DNA from: Pegea sp. RAD2-039
Lineage: Eukaryota; Chordata; Thaliacea; Salpida; Salpidae
Assembly: GCA_034620365.1 (NCBI GenBank)
Contig: JAQGEQ010000071.1
Location: forward strand, 1,364,001 to 1,428,000
Length of the DNA: 64,000 nucleotides
Direction: 5' to 3'
In this document: positions 6,413 to 22,691 of the stretch, in pieces
Numbering within the stretch: the first letter of the stretch is position 1
How the letters are laid out: each line of letters begins with the position of its first letter
Translations under genes and position numbers: made by a program
The notes under the pieces: model-generated
Told to the model about the DNA's origin: nothing
Database searches by the model: none
Seen by the model: the letters and a program-made list of their open reading frames with translations, nothing else

Positions 6413-7490
6413 TTAAAGTGGTTTCAATCCAAGCTTGTGCTCCATCATAAGATGAGGATCTCCCATGATCTCACTATTATCACGGTCTGATGAGAAAATT
6501 CAATTAATATAAAGAAATATTATTTGTTTAATTTTTGAAAATTTATCTTTAACAATTTAATAAATAATTTATTATTATACCTAAGATAATTGTCAAACAT
6601 ATGAATTAAAAAATGAAAGTTTAATAAAAAAATGTAACTTCTTACATTAACTAATTGTTTTTTAGAGCTTGCCTTAATAGCAAACAAAATATTCTATTTA
6701 AAAACTTACCACTTAAGAAATCTTTTGGAAAGATATCTGCATCATGACCATTTAGAATATCAAGAGCAAAGTTAGATGAAGGAAGGCATGGCAATCTAGT
6801 CATTGCTTTCTTGATGGAAATCTTTTCCATTTCAAGTTTCAAAGGTGCATGAAGCCCCTAAAGATTATTGGATCAAATAAGATGTTGCTGGCTAGATGAC
6901 CATTATAACTAGATCAAATAAACTAAACATACAATCATGCGACAAAATTAGTTGCTACCTAAATTATTAATACTAATATTTTATTCTAAATTGTTATTTG
7001 TTCATATATTTCTTAAATGATAGATTATAATTTAATTTTTAAAAAGTTTTGCACAAACTTGGCAATCACGTAAACTTTTATACATGGAATCCTTGTTGAA
7101 TAGATCAACAGACTTGCCCTGTAATGGATGAACAAATCTCTTACTAATATCTTCACTTTGAATGCTGCATAAAAATTTATATCAATTATTTTAAAGACTT
7201 ATTTATATAATTGTTGAAATGATGAAAATTTAACAAGTTTAAGGATTAATCTATCATGGCATATAACTAAAACAAATTTACAACAATGTTGATTGAAATC
7301 TTTAAAAAAAATTTTTAATTAGAGTTTATTTTATTGATGAAATATGACAATTATAAAACTAAATAAGTTAGATTATAGAAAGACATGAGATAACTAACCC
7401 TTTAATCATAGAAGATTTTATTCCACATTCATTTGCAGTATCACCACTAACTCCTTTAGTCATGAACATTTCCATATTTCCGTTAGCCAT
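6413..7490 (-). CDS. POMP: Proteasome maturation protein (POMP/UMP1)
   Basis: POMP is the chaperone that assembles and matures the 20S proteasome, first on the ER membrane and then inside the half-proteasome, where it is degraded. Four exons on the minus strand, 7399-7490, 7059-7164, 6710-6857 and 6413-6486, join in frame to give 139 residues, against 141 in human. The family core is plain: GLHAPLKLEME, RLPCLPSSNFALDIL, and the C-terminal EIMGDPHLMMEHKLGL. The N-terminal third is divergent, as usual for this family. An unpaired acceptor-like site lies about 25 nt upstream of the ATG. Another proteasome gene, PSMA1, lies 12 kb away; there is no sign that they are linked in expression. Confidence 0.95.
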
Positions 7491-10501: not shown

Positions 10502-11446
10502 ATGTTACCGTCAACACTACAATATGAAGAGGATGCATACAAAATTCCTTATCAGTCTTTACATGTAGGAACATTAATCATAAAGCCAGGCCTACATGAT
10601 TATATTGGAGAAGATGCAATGCCTGAAGGCAATCCTTGTGTGTCTTTAAAAGCAGATAAGATCTCATTTAGAATAAGAATAGTTAAAACAAGTGAGTTGT
10701 TAACCCAATATTTTATTGATATTTAATATTGGGTTTTATAGATTGTCAGCAGCTTATTGAGATTAAAGACACTGATATAATAGAGATTAATGTTTGTGAT
10801 GTCATGGATCCAGGATTTCTTTTTATTAAAACAACTAGTGAAAAAGCGCGAGAAATTCGTGAGTTAACTGATATGAAAAGGCTTTTTGGGCCTTACTTGG
10901 ACCCTCAAGCTTATGGTGAATTTGATTTTATAGTCTTGAATGTACTAACAGCTAACTAACAATGTTTTTCATTTAATCAACAAAAGCATTTTTAAAATTT
11001 TTTCTAAACACTGAATGAAAATATAAGTAGATGCATATTTCATTTTAATTACAGTAAGTTTATTTTTGAGGATGTATTAGCCTTTAAAAGTAAATAATAT
11101 TATTAAGTTTTTGATATTTATGGTTTTATGATTAGATTTTATAGATATATAATGATGATTTTTCTATTTTAATAGAAAAAGATGAACAATATGTGAAAGT
11201 CATTTGTTCAAATGCATATGTATCCAGAGTAAAACAAAAGTTTTGTCATTTCATTGATTTATATATCAAAAATTCTAAATTTTCAAAAGATGAACTCTTT
11301 CATGTGATATCTGAATATGAAGCTAAGAGTTGGTTACCAGATGTTAGTTTTATGATTATTTTGTTCTAACTTTTTTTAGTAGCTTTTTTTTAGATTCAAA
11401 TTTATTTCAGGAAATCTTTAAGATTTTATTTATTAATAGAGTATGA
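10502..11446 (+). CDS. Small protein resembling the N-terminal PH-like region of SENP6/7, no protease domain
   Basis: Four exons (10502-10691, 10742-10915, 11176-11342, 11411-11446) join in frame to 188 residues. The splice from 10915 to 11176 restores a continuous sequence reading GPYLDPQAYEKDEQYVKV. The pattern (KADKISFRIRI, DIIEINVCDV, FLFIKTTSEKAREI, then the GPYLDP segment) resembles the beta-rich region ahead of the peptidase in SENP6/SENP7-type SUMO proteases. This is a remembered resemblance, not an alignment. No SENP catalytic His, Asp or Cys block follows, because the frame stops at TGA 11444-11446, inside the ATG of the EHMT gene. It may be a free-standing protein, a degenerate SENP, or part of a bicistronic transcript with EHMT. 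The reading frame is well supported; the family is not. Confidence 0.5.
11421..11446 (+). promoter_or_regulatory. Overlapping stop/start codons with an embedded splice acceptor
   Basis: The SENP-like frame ends in TGA at 11444-11446 and the EHMT frame starts with ATG at 11443-11445, giving ATGA. A T-rich tract ending in TTAATAG, with AG at 11438-11439, precedes the ATG by three bases and could serve as a trans-splice acceptor inside the upstream coding exon. The overlap is read directly; use as a trans-splice site is inferred. Confidence 0.5.
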
Positions 11447-14400
11447 CACGTTCAAAGAAAAGAGATGGCATGCCAAAGCAACTGGCAAGAAAAGCAGCTA
11501 ATCACCGGGTAATATTATCAGCAGGATTTTTACTTGTAAATGTTGAAGTGATATTTTCTTTTAGCTAAGAACTACTAATAAAACTTCTGATAAAAATGAA
11601 GCTTCAAGCTCGAAAAACACTCTCGTTAATGGTGAGATGTAATTCTTAAGTTTGTATGTGTGAAGTCATCGTTACGTTTCACAGGTGCTAGTGGATCTAC
11701 CAATTTCAAATCTGAACCTATGAAGTAAGTACTAAGGACTTAATTGTAAAAAATCATTTCTTCAACTACTTCCAACCACTTACTAATCTAATTTGTTAAT
11801 ATTAATTCACAGTGTCGCTTCTTCAAGTACAGGAGATAAAATTGAAGTGAGAACATTTTAATATCAAATTTATTTGCTAATACATTTGTTACTGGTAGTA
11901 TTTTTATCAGCAAATTTAAGAACAATTTTGTAAGTTAGCAAAACTTGTATTTCAAATGTAGTTTGTTTTAAAAAAATATTCAAATACATTTTTCTTAATT
12001 TTAAGGACGTCAGTACAGGAGAGTTACCAGGTTCTTTCTTTCGTTCACTTGTAAATAGCATCTTGTCAAATTAATTTGTAGTTTTAATTTACATATTCTT
12101 AAATGACATACAGATAAGTCGGAAGATTTTGCATTACAAACCAGAGACGCAAACACAGTCAGTAGCTTGAACTGATCTTTTGATAGATTATCTTTTAATA
12201 AACTTGGGTTTTACTCCACTTTTTTTTTTCAATTCTTTAATTTTATATCGATATCATCACTTACCAGCTACTTATATCAAGTAATTATTATTCAGGAATG
12301 TTTGAACAAATCTCCTAGAATTCTTACTCCAGATGTACGAGCTCAAATGAAGGTAAATACATCCCACTAACTTCCACAAAGATTTTCATTCATTTTGTTT
12401 TACAGAAAGATAAATTCAAAGAAGATGTTGGTTTAAAATCTTGATCTTCTAACTCCAAATTAATCTTGTTTACTTTTAGTCAATCCGAAGCGACATGATT
12501 AATATCATGGGTTTAAGTCCCTTGTGCAGATGTGTTATTCCCACAAAGAGCGTTAGTTTCAACAAGGATGAACCAGTCAAGTGTATGGCTCTGGATTTCG
12601 TCTACGGCAAAGTATTTCAATCTTTCTATCCGACTCTTATGTAACTGGGATTCCTCAGATCATTGGATGTGACAAGTCAGTCTCGCAGAAGACTCCTTCT
12701 CGCTTATATCGTTCACAAGAAGATAAAGTGGCAATTGCTTGCTGTGAAGAACATGGGTAAGTTGTGGTTTGATGCTTGTAGCTCAAATATTGAAAACCTT
12801 TTGTTGCAGAGAGCGTATGATCCGACACGAGAGTTGCCCCTTGTGTGGTCTCTTCTGTACTGCTGGCACTATCATGTTCTGTATCAAATGTCCTGATGTT
12901 CCTCATCGTTTTCATCGGTTAATTTTACTATTTGTTGCTTTATTTGAAATTACATCTGAGATCTTTTAGAGATTGTTCCGTAAAGAAAGGATCACCATCA
13001 GCGTGTCCACATTGTGGGTCTGGCCCCAACTTTATTCGTGAAATTGAACTGAAACCTGGTGGTGAAATTGATCTTGCTCATTTGATCATTGGACAGAAAA
13101 TAGACCGGAGCAGGAAAAAGAACTATTTGTCAAATAGGTGGTTGTGGTCACATGACCAGTGGACTCATGTTTATCTAGGATTTTGTTTTAGGCAGCGAGC
13201 AGCTCGAATGATTGGCAACAACTCAATTGTGTTTGATAGCAACCTTGAACGACAACTAGAAATAGAAAATAAAAAGATCAGCAAATCTTTGCAAGATGGA
13301 AGAATTATTGACATCTCTCATCTGCCTCCGGGACTTGACAGATCGCAATTGGAGCTGATCATGAAAAATCTGTAAGATCGCTGCTATTTACTGACTGCTT
13401 ACTCATTCATTAGTATTTCAGTTCGTTAGGTAAAGAGTCTGTTAGCTTCGATAAGTCTCAAATCCTTCGTTTCACTCGATTAAGTGATGTGAAATCAGTG
13501 AGTGATCTTAATTCGTTCATCTTTCTTCTGATTGGTCGATACATTTTCAGCTCATAGAAATCTTAGTCAACGCAGAGGATCTACAAAAGTATCATGAGAC
13601 TTTATGTGAAGCACTTTTCATTGCTTATGGCGTCAGAGCAAAACATATCTTGTACATCTTACTGCAACTAGGTTACGATATCAACAGGAAAAACTCGAAA
13701 GGAGAAACCTTGCTGGTATGCAAAATTCCTTTCTACCTACCCATCTCTCATCCAAGCATTTTTATTAGTACTTGGCAGTGAAGGAATCAAACCATGAGTA
13801 TGTCCACTTCTTCCTGCTGCATGGAGCAGATGCACTCGTTGAAAGCCAGGTTTGCATCAAAGGTAATTGTAGCTCTTCATCACAAATCTCCTAAGACACA
13901 CTCTTCCAACAGGAACATCATCCTTTCATCTAGCTGCTTACAAAGGCGACATCAAATCTTTATATCTTATTCTACTCTCTCAAACGATTGATTTAAACGC
14001 TGAAACGAGTCAGGGCTGGACACCGTTTGGTTTAGCGGCTACAGCGGGTCATCTGACCACAGCTGAGTATCTCATCTGTCAAGGAGCAGACCTCCAATTG
14101 TTTGGAAGTGTAAGAAGATGATCTTGTGTCTGTGTTTTATTCATCAATCATCATAACAGATAGGCAAAAATGGATTTCATCTGGCTGTTTCATCAAACAA
14201 CTTAGAAATGGTGAAGTTGTGTCTTCGCAAAGGATGTAATCCCAACATCGTTAGTTCCAACATCTTCGTGAACATCTCAACTAGCTTCTTCGTCAACAGA
14301 AAACAGCAGATGGTGAAACAGCGTTGCACATAGCAACACGAAACGGCAATTATCCCATCGTTACTATGCTCCTAGGTGGAGGAGCAGATCCTTGCATCTT

Positions 14401-15763
14401 AAACTCTCAAGGAAAAGGATGCATCAATGTCAGTTACTCGCATTCTACTTCTCACTCTTTATCATTTGAACTTTTTAGGAGGATGTCTCGGAGGATAGTA
14501 TGTGTTGGCTGGCAATACGAATCAATAAGATGTGTCGAGAGCTCATTATAGCTCCGGTTACTCCCCTCAACATCGAACGAACTTTATGTCGTGATATGTC
14601 ACGTGGTTTTGCTCGTGTTAGTTAAAATCGTCCAATTAGAAAGCTTCATGTTATTGAATGAAACTCATTACAGGTTCCAGTGTCATGCGTGAACGCAGTG
14701 GACTCTGAACCATGTCCAGCTTGCAGTGGCTCCGAATCATCTTTTAAATACATCACTAAAAGTCTTTACGTCAACAACGAATCACAACCGAATCTTTGCG
14801 TTAAACCTAATGAAGTTTGATCCTTTCAGCGCCCTCTAGTGTTTCATTCATCTTCTTGTTTCAGATCTGCCTCTGTAAAGATAGTTGCTGTGTGAGTCCA
14901 TCTAAATGTGATTGTGTGATGAGTAGCGAAAGATGTTGGTATGATGAAAACGGATTTTTAGTTCCTGAGTTTGTTGCTGAGTCTCACTGTCCTATCTATG
15001 AATGCACACAGCTCTGTCGATGTGACAGCTCATGTCGTAACAGAGTAGTACAGATGGGGATGCGGTTAGTTTCTATCGCTAACCAACCAACCTTCGAACA
15101 TCGTCTGATTGTCACTTTTTCTATTCCAGCTATCGATTACAAGTTTATCGCACCTCTTTTATGGGTTGGGGTTTAAGATCTCTGGATAGAATTCCAAAGG
15201 GGGCATTTATTTGTGATTATGTGGGTGAAGTAATACCAGATAGCATCGCAGAAGGAAGGCAAGAAGACACTTATCTATTTGATATTCAAAACCATCATCT
15301 TGTGAGGATTTAGTGAGATGAAGTTGATGAGGTTTCACTTTACACTTTTTGCAGCAAACTGACAATTTCTGTGTGGACGCAAATGAATATGGAAATTGTT
15401 CGCGATTTATCAACCATCTTTGTGATGCAAATCTCTACACCATTCGAGTGTTTACTGAACATAGAGACCCTCGATTCCCGACTTTAGCGTTCTTCTCTGT
15501 GAAAGAAATCGCCCCTCTTGAAGAACTCGGGTAAGTTGATCTTAAATTGAAACTTCTGTTTGTTACTTTTAATTGATTTTATTTCCTTTAGTTTTGATTA
15601 TGGAGAAACTTTTTGGGATATTAAAAGCAAGACTGAATGCTGTAAATGTGGTTCACCTATGTGCAAGTATTCTAAAGAAGCTTACGACCTAAAAAAGAAG
15701 AATAAAGAAACGAGCGACGATGAAAAGGAGAATGAAGAGAAAGAAGTAGAAGAAATGAAATAA
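11443..15763 (+). CDS. EHMT: EHMT/G9a-type histone H3K9 methyltransferase (ankyrin + SET)
   Basis: Chromatin enzyme that mono- and dimethylates H3K9; the ankyrin repeats read the mark. Twenty-five exons join in frame to 929 residues; nearly every intron is about 45-60 nt. Exons 1-8 (11443-12426) code a low-complexity basic/Ser-rich N-terminus. Residues about 119-250 form the family's cysteine-rich region ([15 protein letters not shown]). Residues 373-597 (exons 13551-14428) are ankyrin repeats. Residues 598-757 are pre-SET with clustered Cys ([18 protein letters not shown]). SET follows ([37 protein letters not shown]), then post-SET Cys (CCKCGSPMC). The catalytic NHxCxxN-type motif and YGE are intact. 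The protein is shorter than human G9a or GLP (about 1200-1300 residues), mainly at the N-terminus. The start at 11443 is the first ATG of the frame and overlaps the upstream stop. Confidence 0.95.
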
Positions 15764-16544: not shown

Positions 16545-16728
16545 TACTGTTGCCAGTTTCTTCATTTTATACATTTAAATTTATCTATACTTCTAAATTG
16601 TTTCTAATTATTCCACATTAAATATCAAACTGGACTTTTCATTATCTCTCTGCAGTCATACTGTTTGTTTGCTATAAAAGCAGTATAATTTGTTATCTAC
16701 ATTGATGAATAAAATTAATAAATAATGA
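16545..16728 (+). mobile_element. LINE 3' end, diverged copy
   Basis: Shares with three other places in the window a 3' signature: GTTGCCAGT near its start, then GCTATAAAAGCAGTATAA (elsewhere TATAAGAGCTGTATAA), ending in an AATAAAT-type microsatellite tail. It looks like the 3' untranslated end of a non-LTR retrotransposon. The coding LINE fragment beginning at 16740 follows at once, so this is the end of a separate copy. Confidence 0.55.
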
Positions 16729-16739
16729 GTTTTGAATTA

Positions 16740-17985
16740 CCTACCTTGCTTGATAACAGCAACCAGCTTGTTATGAAACCAGAGAATAAAGCTGAATTGT
16801 TAAACAATCAATTTCATAGCACTCTTATAACCGAAGATACTTCATCTTTTCTTACTCCAACATTCTTACAAATGTCTCTGAGATGATAGATCTTGAAATA
16901 ACGGTTGATATGGTAACTAAGGCTCTTTCTTCTTTAAAATTATCAGTTTCCAACACCCCAGATTAGATTCCTGCTATGTTTTTAAGAAAAATTACTTCCT
17001 CTTTATCACTACCTTTATCGCTACACTTTAACATCAATCTGAGGCAAGGAAGAGTTCCTCAAATTTGGAAATCATTACTCTTATTCATAAAAAGGGTCCT
17101 AGAAACACCGCACTTAACAACAGACCAGTTTTGCTTGCTTCAGTTATCTGCAGAACTCAAGAGCATATCATTCACAATCATATGACCAGTCATTTGATGG
17201 AGCACCATCTAATATCTGATGTCCAACATGGCTTTGTGAAATGGAGATCTTCCTTGACTCAATATCTCAATTTTCGTTTGGTCTTACAGCCCATTATGAA
17301 AGTAATACTCCTGGTGACTTCATATACCTCGATTTTGCTAAAGCGTTTGATTCTGTCCTACGCAAAAAGCTCGTTACTGTATTAAAAAACTTAAAAATCA
17401 ACAGTTTTATCTTAAAGTGGATTGAATATTACTTATCAGATAGAATCCAACAAACTCGTGTTGAAAGATCTTAATCTACTCCTAGTCAAGTTACCAGTGT
17501 TGTTCCCCAGGGTACCGTTCAGGATCCCCTTCTCTTTTTAATTTTCATTGAAGACCTCATCAGAAGACCAGTAGCAGTAGATTATATCAGTGTGTCAAGT
17601 GTGACATCAAGCTATTATCTTGCAATCCTTCAAAACTTCAAACCGCATTACACACTACAGAAAACTGGTCTATTTTAGATATTTTGGAAATTCGACGGTT
17701 TAAATACTACTCAATTCTAAGTTTTTAACTATCCACAATTTAGTTGACCTTCAATTCAATGATTTCTTTTCCATTATTCCTTCCCTCAATTTATATCAAC
17801 GCAGACGACACACAACATCTTAGTAAGCCCATATCACCTGGTACGTTAATCAGAGTAAATTTTCTTTCATACCGCTCAATTAGTACTTGCTTAAATAGCT
17901 TGTTTAATCAGACATTGGAACAGAATCACTCGTGTTGTTCAAGCAGAAGTTGGACCGTTTAATATTGCCAACATTTCTAAAGTGT
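16740..17985 (+). mobile_element. Decayed non-LTR retrotransposon (LINE) with reverse transcriptase domain
   Basis: A chain of frames reads as the reverse transcriptase of a CR1/Jockey-type LINE. It runs from an N-terminal block (KPENKAELLNNQFHS) to the palm: IWKS/ITLIHKKGPRNT, NRPVLLASVICR, then motif A YLDFAKAFDSVL, motif B VPQGT...DPLLFLIFIEDL, and motif C NADDTQ near 17795-17812. After that comes a C-terminal block with FKQKLDRLI near 17935. Several frame changes and stops interrupt it, for example the stop right after TRVERS at 17472-17474, so it is inactive. The 5' end and the endonuclease are missing. The 3' signature seen elsewhere in the window is not found directly downstream. Confidence 0.85.
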
Positions 17986-21096: not shown

Positions 21097-21410
21097 ACAT
21101 GTTGATGTGCCAATTATTATTTTAAATATTTTGCGGAACGAGGAGTCATCAATCAAAATTAATTCATTAGTAAACATTTTATGTAGATATAATGCTTTTC
21201 CTAATAATTTCATTTATTTCCACTTGAAGTAAACTACTTTTGCAATTGTTGTGTTAAAAAGTTGACAAGTCGACGACTTCTTTAGTATTTCATCAGCTTA
21301 TTACAATTAAGGTTTTAGCTGGAAAATAAATGAAAAAATTGTTCTTTCATTTCTTTGTGTTGCTCTTAATAAACATTATTTGTTGTATGGTGAAAAAAAA
21401 ATTGAAAAAA

Positions 21411-21528
21411 GCCTACGACACGCGGTATTCCCAGGCGGTCACCCATCCAAGTACTGACCGCGCCCGACACTGCTTAACTTCCCAGATCGGACGAGATGGG
21501 GTGTATTCAGTGTGGTATGGTCGTAGGC
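21411..21528 (-). rRNA. 5S rRNA: 5S ribosomal RNA, copy 1
   Basis: 118 nt. The ends pair (GCCTACGAC with GTCGTAGGC). The internal control region is present: A box GTTAAGC, and C box TTGGATGGGTGACC. On the minus strand the gene is followed by a T6 run and then a T9 run, the Pol III terminator. A TATA-like CTATTTAAA (plus strand 21549-21557) sits 21-29 nt upstream. Confidence 0.98.
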
Positions 21529-21548
21529 GATGTCTCTTACTTTTTCTT

Positions 21549-21557
21549 CTATTTAAA
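21549..21557 (-). promoter_or_regulatory. TATA-like element upstream of 5S
   Basis: On the minus strand TTTAAATAG lies at -29 to -21 relative to the 5S 5' end. The same word precedes every full copy. An upstream TATA-like box near -30 is known for 5S genes in several animals; its role here is inferred from position and conservation within the array. Confidence 0.5.
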
Positions 21558-21778
21558 CTCTGCTTTTCCTAATAATTTCATTTATTTCCACTTGAAGTAA
21601 ACTACTTTTGCAATTGTTGTGTTAAAAAGTTGACAAGTCGACGACTTCTTTAGTATTTCATCAGCTGATTACAATTAAGGTTTTAGCTGGAAAATAAATG
21701 AAAAAATTGTTCTTTCATTTCTGTGTGTTGCTCTTAATAAACATTATTTGTTGTATGGTGAAAAAAAAATTGAAAAAA

Positions 21779-21823
21779 GCCTACGACACGCGGTATTCCC
21801 AGGCGGTCACCCATCCAAGTACT
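21779..21823 (-). pseudogene. Truncated 5S rRNA fragment
   Basis: Only the last 45 nt of the 5S sequence (nt 74-118, including the C box) are present. At CCAAGTACT the sequence jumps to an A-rich run and restarts in the 3' flank of the next whole gene at 21841. The extra piece of about 62 bp explains the 430-bp unit. It lacks the 5' part and the A box, so it is a pseudogene. Confidence 0.95.
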
Positions 21824-21840
21824 AAAAAAAATTGAAAAAA

Positions 21841-21958
21841 GCCTACGACACGCGGTATTCCCAGGCGGTCACCCATCCAAGTACTGACCGCGCCCGACAC
21901 TGCTTAACTTCCCAGATCGGACGAGATGGGGTGTATTCAGTGTGGTATGGTCGTAGGC
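21841..21958 (-). rRNA. 5S rRNA: 5S ribosomal RNA, copy 2
   Basis: 118 nt, identical by eye to copy 1. It is flanked downstream (minus strand) by T runs, directly next to the truncated fragment, and upstream by the same TATA-like word. Confidence 0.98.
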
Positions 21959-22205
21959 GATGTCTCTTACTTTTTCTTCTATTTAAACTCTGCTTTTCCT
22001 AATAATTTCATTTATTTCCACTTGAAGTAAACTACTTTTGCAATTGTGTTAAAAAGTTGACAAGTCGACGACTTCTTTAGTATTTCATCAGCTTATTACA
22101 ATTAAGGTTTTAGCTGGAAAATAAATGAAAAAATTGTTCTTTCATTTCTTTGTGTTGCTCTTGATAAACATTATTTGTTGTATGGTGAAAAAAAAATTGA
22201 AAAAA

Positions 22206-22323
22206 GCCTACGACACGCGGTATTCCCAGGCGGTCACCCATCCAAGTACTGACCGCGCCCGACTCTGCTTAACTTCCCAGATCGGACGAGATGGGGTGTA
22301 TTCAGTGTGGTATGGTCGTAGGC
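22206..22323 (-). rRNA. 5S rRNA: 5S ribosomal RNA, copy 3
   Basis: 118 nt. It differs from the other copies by one base (plus-strand GACTCTGC in place of GACACTGC), which falls beside the A box and would disturb one base pair. T-run terminator and upstream TATA-like word are present. Confidence 0.96.
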
Positions 22324-22573
22324 GATGTCTCTTACTTTTTCTTCTATTTAAACTCTGCTTTTCCTAATAATTTCATTTATTTCCACTTGAAGTAAACTAC
22401 TTTTGCAATTGTTGTGTTAAAAAGTTGACAAGTCGACGACTTCTTTAGTATTTCATCAGCTTATTACAATTAAGGTTTTAGCTGGAAAATAAATGAAAAA
22501 ATTGTTCTTTCATTTCTTTGTGTTGCTCTTAATAAACATTATTTGTTGTATGGTGAAAAAAAAATTGAAAAAA

Positions 22574-22691
22574 GCCTACGACACGCGGTATTCCCAGGCG
22601 GTCACCCATCCAAGTACTGACCGCGCCCGACACTGCTTAACTTCCCAGATCGGACGAGATGGGGTGTATTCAGTGTGGTATGGTCGTAGGC
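22574..22691 (-). rRNA. 5S rRNA: 5S ribosomal RNA, copy 4
   Basis: 118 nt, same as copies 1 and 2 by eye. It is the rightmost gene (first upstream on the minus strand); the spacer beyond it breaks off near 22903. Confidence 0.98.

Follow-up and report, generated by a model that had tools for sequence, protein, structure and literature searches.

Two genes on one strand

The locus studied here raises the question of how two coding frames that follow each other on one strand, with a gap of 0 nt between them, can each be given an mRNA, or whether they belong to a single gene. It lies in a stretch of 64,000 nucleotides of the Pegea sp. RAD2-039 genome (contig JAQGEQ010000071.1, positions 1,364,001 to 1,428,000; below, the window), which is AT-rich (22-39% G+C in 2-kb steps) and belongs to an assembly of 105.7 Mb in 387 contigs. 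The second gene of the pair is EHMT (G9a/GLP). It extends over 11443..15763 on the plus strand in 24 exons, codes for 922 residues, and has 23 introns that range from 47 to 159 nt (median, 53 nt). Pfam recognizes the Cys-rich region (PF21533, E 6.2e-25), the ankyrin repeats (PF12796, 1.5e-27) and the SET domain (PF00856, 1.9e-20), and an 898-residue version of the protein matched human EHMT1 in the PDB (3hna) with an E value of 1.1e-89. The start of this frame at the ATG of an ATGA, proposed in the initial annotation, was confirmed, with a length of 922 residues here versus the 929 given there. A histone H3-like stretch in the N-terminus (KQLARKAA) was considered and discarded, its score being reached by 16-19% of shuffles; it gave no PDB match. 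Between EHMT and the gene for the proteasome subunit PSMA1 lies a broken reverse-transcriptase remnant (window 16722-17962, +).

The gene in front of EHMT (10502-11446, +) starts at ATG 10502. Its first three coding exons, 10502..10691, 10742..10915 and 11176..11342, have coding log-odds of 25.6, 21.9 and 9.5 (scored in the frame given, with a coding table derived from the EHMT and PIG-S genes of the window). These three exons carry a clear coding signal and account for 177 residues, the remaining tail being set by the choice of splice site. The third ends in a phase-0 donor, GAT/GTTAGT, whose score of 7.4 falls among those of the EHMT donors (1.4-11.1). A possible last exon, 11411..11446, has no coding signal of its own (log-odds, -2.7) but is just 36 nt long. 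Spliced together, the four pieces do form one open reading frame, 188 codons long as had been described, with the TGA at 11444-11446.

The name “SENP-like” that this frame had received found no support. Its protein did not match any Pfam family (with E values up to 10 allowed, a single DUF appeared, at E 0.3), and it had no PDB match below E 0.43; compared with five loci for SENP-type peptidases in this genome, it showed no similarity (best E, 2.6). Neither a Peptidase_C48 domain nor a recognizable SENP sequence was found, and in the genome-wide search the protein matched only its own three exons. A SENP relative that has diverged beyond the reach of sequence comparison could still be behind it. 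Since no family was found, we use the neutral name “upstream gene.” SENP-type peptidase genes do occur elsewhere in the genome (L006 and L012), and in the one on contig C10, the two halves of the domain are widely separated in the DNA. The domain halves of SENP6/7 are likewise separated.

Acceptors and the stop-start overlap at the junction

Candidate splice acceptors were scored with a matrix built from the 23 EHMT introns. Those ahead of EHMT include the ones ending at 11410 (score, 10.5), 11379 (8.1), 11393 (6.1), 11382 (5.3) and 11439 (4.5). The one at 11410 (AG 11409-11410) is the strongest AG before the gene, and its score ranks in the top 0.2% of all AGs on the plus strand of the window. 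It closes a predicted intron of 68 nt with 59% T (11343..11410, +) and is, at the same time, a candidate trans-splice site. A second candidate is the weaker AG at 11438..11439 (+), in the sequence TTTATTAATAG followed by AGT, whose score equals the median of the 23 EHMT acceptors. It had been pointed out before, and it does leave only AGT ahead of the ATG. The two sites are, therefore, 32 nt and 3 nt in front of the EHMT start codon, i.e., both lie shortly before the ATG of the downstream gene.

The end of the upstream protein depends on which of these sites is joined to donor 11342. Removal of 11343-11410 gives a tail of 11 residues with the stop within ATGA, that of 11343-11393 gives 35 residues with a stop at 11501, and that of 11343-11439 lets the frame continue into EHMT as an in-frame fusion. 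If the donor is left unspliced, translation meets a TAA at 11367-11369. The overlap of stop and start at 11443-11446 had been the main observation of the initial annotation, and it is correct that ATG 11443-11445 opens EHMT while the upstream frame can stop in the TGA. It should be noted that it hinges on acceptor 11410, one among several possible. With this acceptor and the ATG given, its chance was about 0.07, obtained by shuffling the 32 bases before the ATG and multiplying by 1 in 3 for the phase, and 16 of 55 genes sampled from the genome (see below) begin with ATGA anyway. For both reasons, the overlap by itself is weak evidence and no proof of anything. No AATAAA is found between 11342 and 11446, where the variant AATAGA occurs at 11435. 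The first one past 11342, at 11577, is inside EHMT exon 2, a position that would agree with the upstream mRNA ending late and that is unsurprising with 2.7 AATAAA per kb in the window.

Spliced-leader genes and acceptors in the rest of the genome

The genome encodes the ascidian spliced leader (SL) RNA. The 16-nt Ciona leader ATTCTATTTGAATAAG, as printed in the excerpt of PMC7986045 that was available, followed by GT had 259 matches (141 + 118) with at most 1 mismatch, while the reversed pattern used as a control matched nowhere on one strand and once on the opposite one. A leader of this kind points to a tunicate. Among the 100 leader matches listed, 99 were exact. At least 33 exact copies follow each other head to tail on contig C4, in steps of about 199 bases or multiples thereof. 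The first 10 kb of contig C11 (L026, C11:1-10000, minus strand) contain eight units of 198 bases, and every unit has the leader, a GTAAGT donor and a short 3' hairpin. These three elements together take up no more than 46 nt, which is how long the SL RNA of Ciona is according to the consulted section of PMC11155486. Four of the eight units have the exact leader, ending in AATAAG, and the other four end in AATAAA, i.e., with a final A for G. Eight exact copies were also read in their context, and half of them (4/8; L107, L108 and L019) lacked GTAAGT, so that not all of the 259 matches are leader genes. Such dispersed exact copies, two of which are 22 bases apart at one locus, are perhaps the reverse-transcribed ends of leader-bearing RNAs. 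Rfam had no match for either the leader array (L026) or L019. A bdelloid rotifer leader had 0 matches with up to 3 mismatches allowed; for another rotifer, Brachionus plicatilis, the portion consulted of an EST study reports no leader (PMC1925144).

The presence of a leader gene within the cluster of 5S rRNA genes of the window was also considered and rejected: the best leader match in the window has 3 mismatches and is not at the 5S genes. The cluster itself (21410-22691, -) comprises four complete genes plus a fragment, with a repeat unit of about 368 bases. In a genome-wide DNA search, the only other 5S sequence was one diverged copy on contig C84, a strikingly small set, with copy counts that are lower bounds.

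If leaders are added to many transcripts, acceptors should be frequent just before start codons. We took 66 upstream regions, from 50 of 147 Ras-family, 10 of 46 UQ_con and 6 of 8 proteasome-alpha matches, selecting matches near the start of the domain and taking the most upstream Met in the open frame as the gene start. Leaving out L051 (a copy) and 10 regions without an in-frame Met, 55 remained. An acceptor with a score of at least 5 was found no more than 50 nt before the ATG in 31/55 starts versus 46/213 control windows further upstream (p 1e-6), and one with a score of at least 7 in 13/55 versus 11/213 (p 1e-4). These p-values are somewhat too small, because some of the sampled genes are relatives of one another. 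At the threshold of 5, the opposite strand gave 8/55, and 200 shuffles gave a mean of 9.8 and a maximum of 17. The upstream gene has such an acceptor as well (score, 8.0), 29 nt before ATG 10502, a start codon whose context is at the 7th percentile among the 55 sampled starts. Most of the acceptors at gene starts have no donor close by: a donor scoring at least 4 was present 44-70 nt upstream of 4 of the 19 start acceptors that scored at least 6, compared with 122/655 random positions and 19/23 true EHMT introns. Long introns in the 5' untranslated region (UTR) would look the same. A search of the 55 upstream regions for a common leader revealed no word of at least 11 bases in three or more of them.

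A probable operon and the alternative readings

The single strand, the 0-nt gap, the T-rich stretch with its acceptors and the leader in the genome together make it most likely that the upstream gene and EHMT are resolved by spliced leader, and we consider that they probably form a two-gene, tunicate-type (Ciona) operon without spacer. In such operons, genes of the same strand follow each other with no DNA in between, the gap here being one between coding frames and not transcript ends. A spliced-leader operon had been one of the readings of the initial annotation; it is now the best explanation, given a leader that is multicopy in the genome and start acceptors without a nearby donor. In such an operon, a single promoter upstream of 10502 would give a pre-mRNA spanning both genes, and the 16-nt leader, supplied by SL RNA genes at other places in the genome, would be joined to acceptor 11410 or 11439. 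EHMT would in this way obtain a monocistronic mRNA of its own, in which the leader is followed by 32 or 3 nt of 5' UTR. The upstream mRNA might be made in two ways. Its last donor could be read through up to the TAA at 11367-11369, with polyadenylation near the acceptor, or 11342 could be spliced to 11411, in which case the TGA of ATGA would be the stop and the 3' end would fall inside EHMT. With the latter, the leader site at 11410 would be the cis acceptor of the last predicted intron of the upstream gene, and so the two mRNAs would exclude each other. We can carry this further and regard 11410 as a switch contested by cis donor 11342 and the leader: cis use would give an upstream mRNA stopping in the EHMT start codon, trans use would give the EHMT mRNA, and 11439 would provide a third, protein-fusing outcome. 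Such a switch is conceivable, albeit doubtful.

Several observations go against the operon. Long introns in 5' UTRs could account for the start acceptors that have no donor nearby, donor 11342 and acceptor 11410 look like an ordinary cis intron, AATAAA is missing before the acceptors, and ATG 11443 has a start context that ranks only at the 24th percentile among the 55 sampled starts. The pair could also be one alternatively spliced gene, as had been suggested, in which 11342 is spliced to 11440 and the upstream domain would form the N-terminal part of an enlarged EHMT protein (...SWLPD-S-MTRSKK...). This alternative retains some weight because the two frames stay in phase when donor 11342 is joined to acceptor 11439; its intron of 97 nt is inside the EHMT range, and 6 of the 23 EHMT introns bypass an upstream AG, at least 37 nt away from the donor, whose score equals or exceeds that of the AG used. 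Four of these six belong to the 5' part of the gene, which is less certain. However, four stronger acceptors (11379, 11382, 11393 and 11410) precede 11439, a match of phase is expected 1 time in 3, and, according to the consulted text of PMC2760879, gene prediction often merges the abutting genes of operons by mistake. We, therefore, hold a single gene to be unlikely.

It seems quite unlikely as well that we are dealing with two abutting genes that have separate promoters, with EHMT either starting independently or having a long intron in its 5' UTR. The acceptors ahead of ATGs could stem from long 5' introns, but a promoter has no space between the frames and would have to lie within the upstream gene, and the exons of PAN3, UMP1, PSMA1, PI4-kinase and PIG-S in the window are at least 2 kb apart, as measured between Pfam-anchored exons rather than full gene ends. 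The ATGA overlap brings to mind a bicistronic mature mRNA, on which ribosomes that stop at the TGA restart at the overlapping ATG. Splicing of 11342 to 11411 without trans-splicing would indeed produce an mRNA with the overlap, yet this is expected at about 7% by chance, and restart would be unnecessary because the genome has a leader system, which makes it highly improbable. Nor does the operon need the overlap, which may go unused, since the two genes of Ciona operons abut (in the part consulted of PMC2760879). In the part consulted of one paper on leader operons, no stop-start overlap was met with, and one may still be in print.

The system most likely belongs to a known kind, the Ciona-type operon. 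According to the consulted parts of PMC2760879 and PMC7986045, about 20% of Ciona genes are in operons, where they abut without intergenic DNA and the leader is added to the downstream gene. The pair described here, known from genome sequence alone, resembles these zero-spacer operons of Ciona intestinalis in the same 16-nt leader encoded in the genome, the single strand, the absence of a spacer and the acceptors just before the downstream ATG. Unlike in them, the strongest acceptor doubles as the predicted cis acceptor of the upstream gene, and the stop could overlap the downstream ATG. Intercistronic sequence is also absent from the SL1-type operons of Caenorhabditis elegans, as described in sections of PMC12582326 and PMC7986045, which have another leader and belong to another phylum. 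In Ciona, one acceptor may receive either a cis exon or the leader, as might happen at 11410; in the excerpt consulted (PMC11155486), this is the first acceptor of non-operonic genes, whereas here it would sit between two genes. A spliced-leader system has, thus, been recognizable in a genome without transcripts, and EHMT, a chromatin regulator, is placed downstream in a probable tunicate operon. The shared acceptor, if true, would be a simple test case for the competition between cis- and trans-splicing, with a readable product on either side.

Some other features of the genome were noted along the way. Searches gave no match for COX1. Six telomere motifs were looked for in 17 of the 10-kb stretches at contig ends (the assembly has 387 contigs), and none of the motifs occurred there in four tandem copies. 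Some gene matches come in pairs, on separate contigs or close together (C127/C169, C32/C40 and C264), with the same score or almost the same upstream DNA; these are either recent duplicates or uncollapsed haplotypes. An exon of the proteasome maturation factor UMP1 (window 6654-6857, -) lies about 13 kb from the gene for the proteasome subunit PSMA1. This PSMA1-like gene (named by eye, as is the next), at window 19503, seems to have its ATG in a separate exon, and a second one, L085 on C236, has an open frame of 259 residues.
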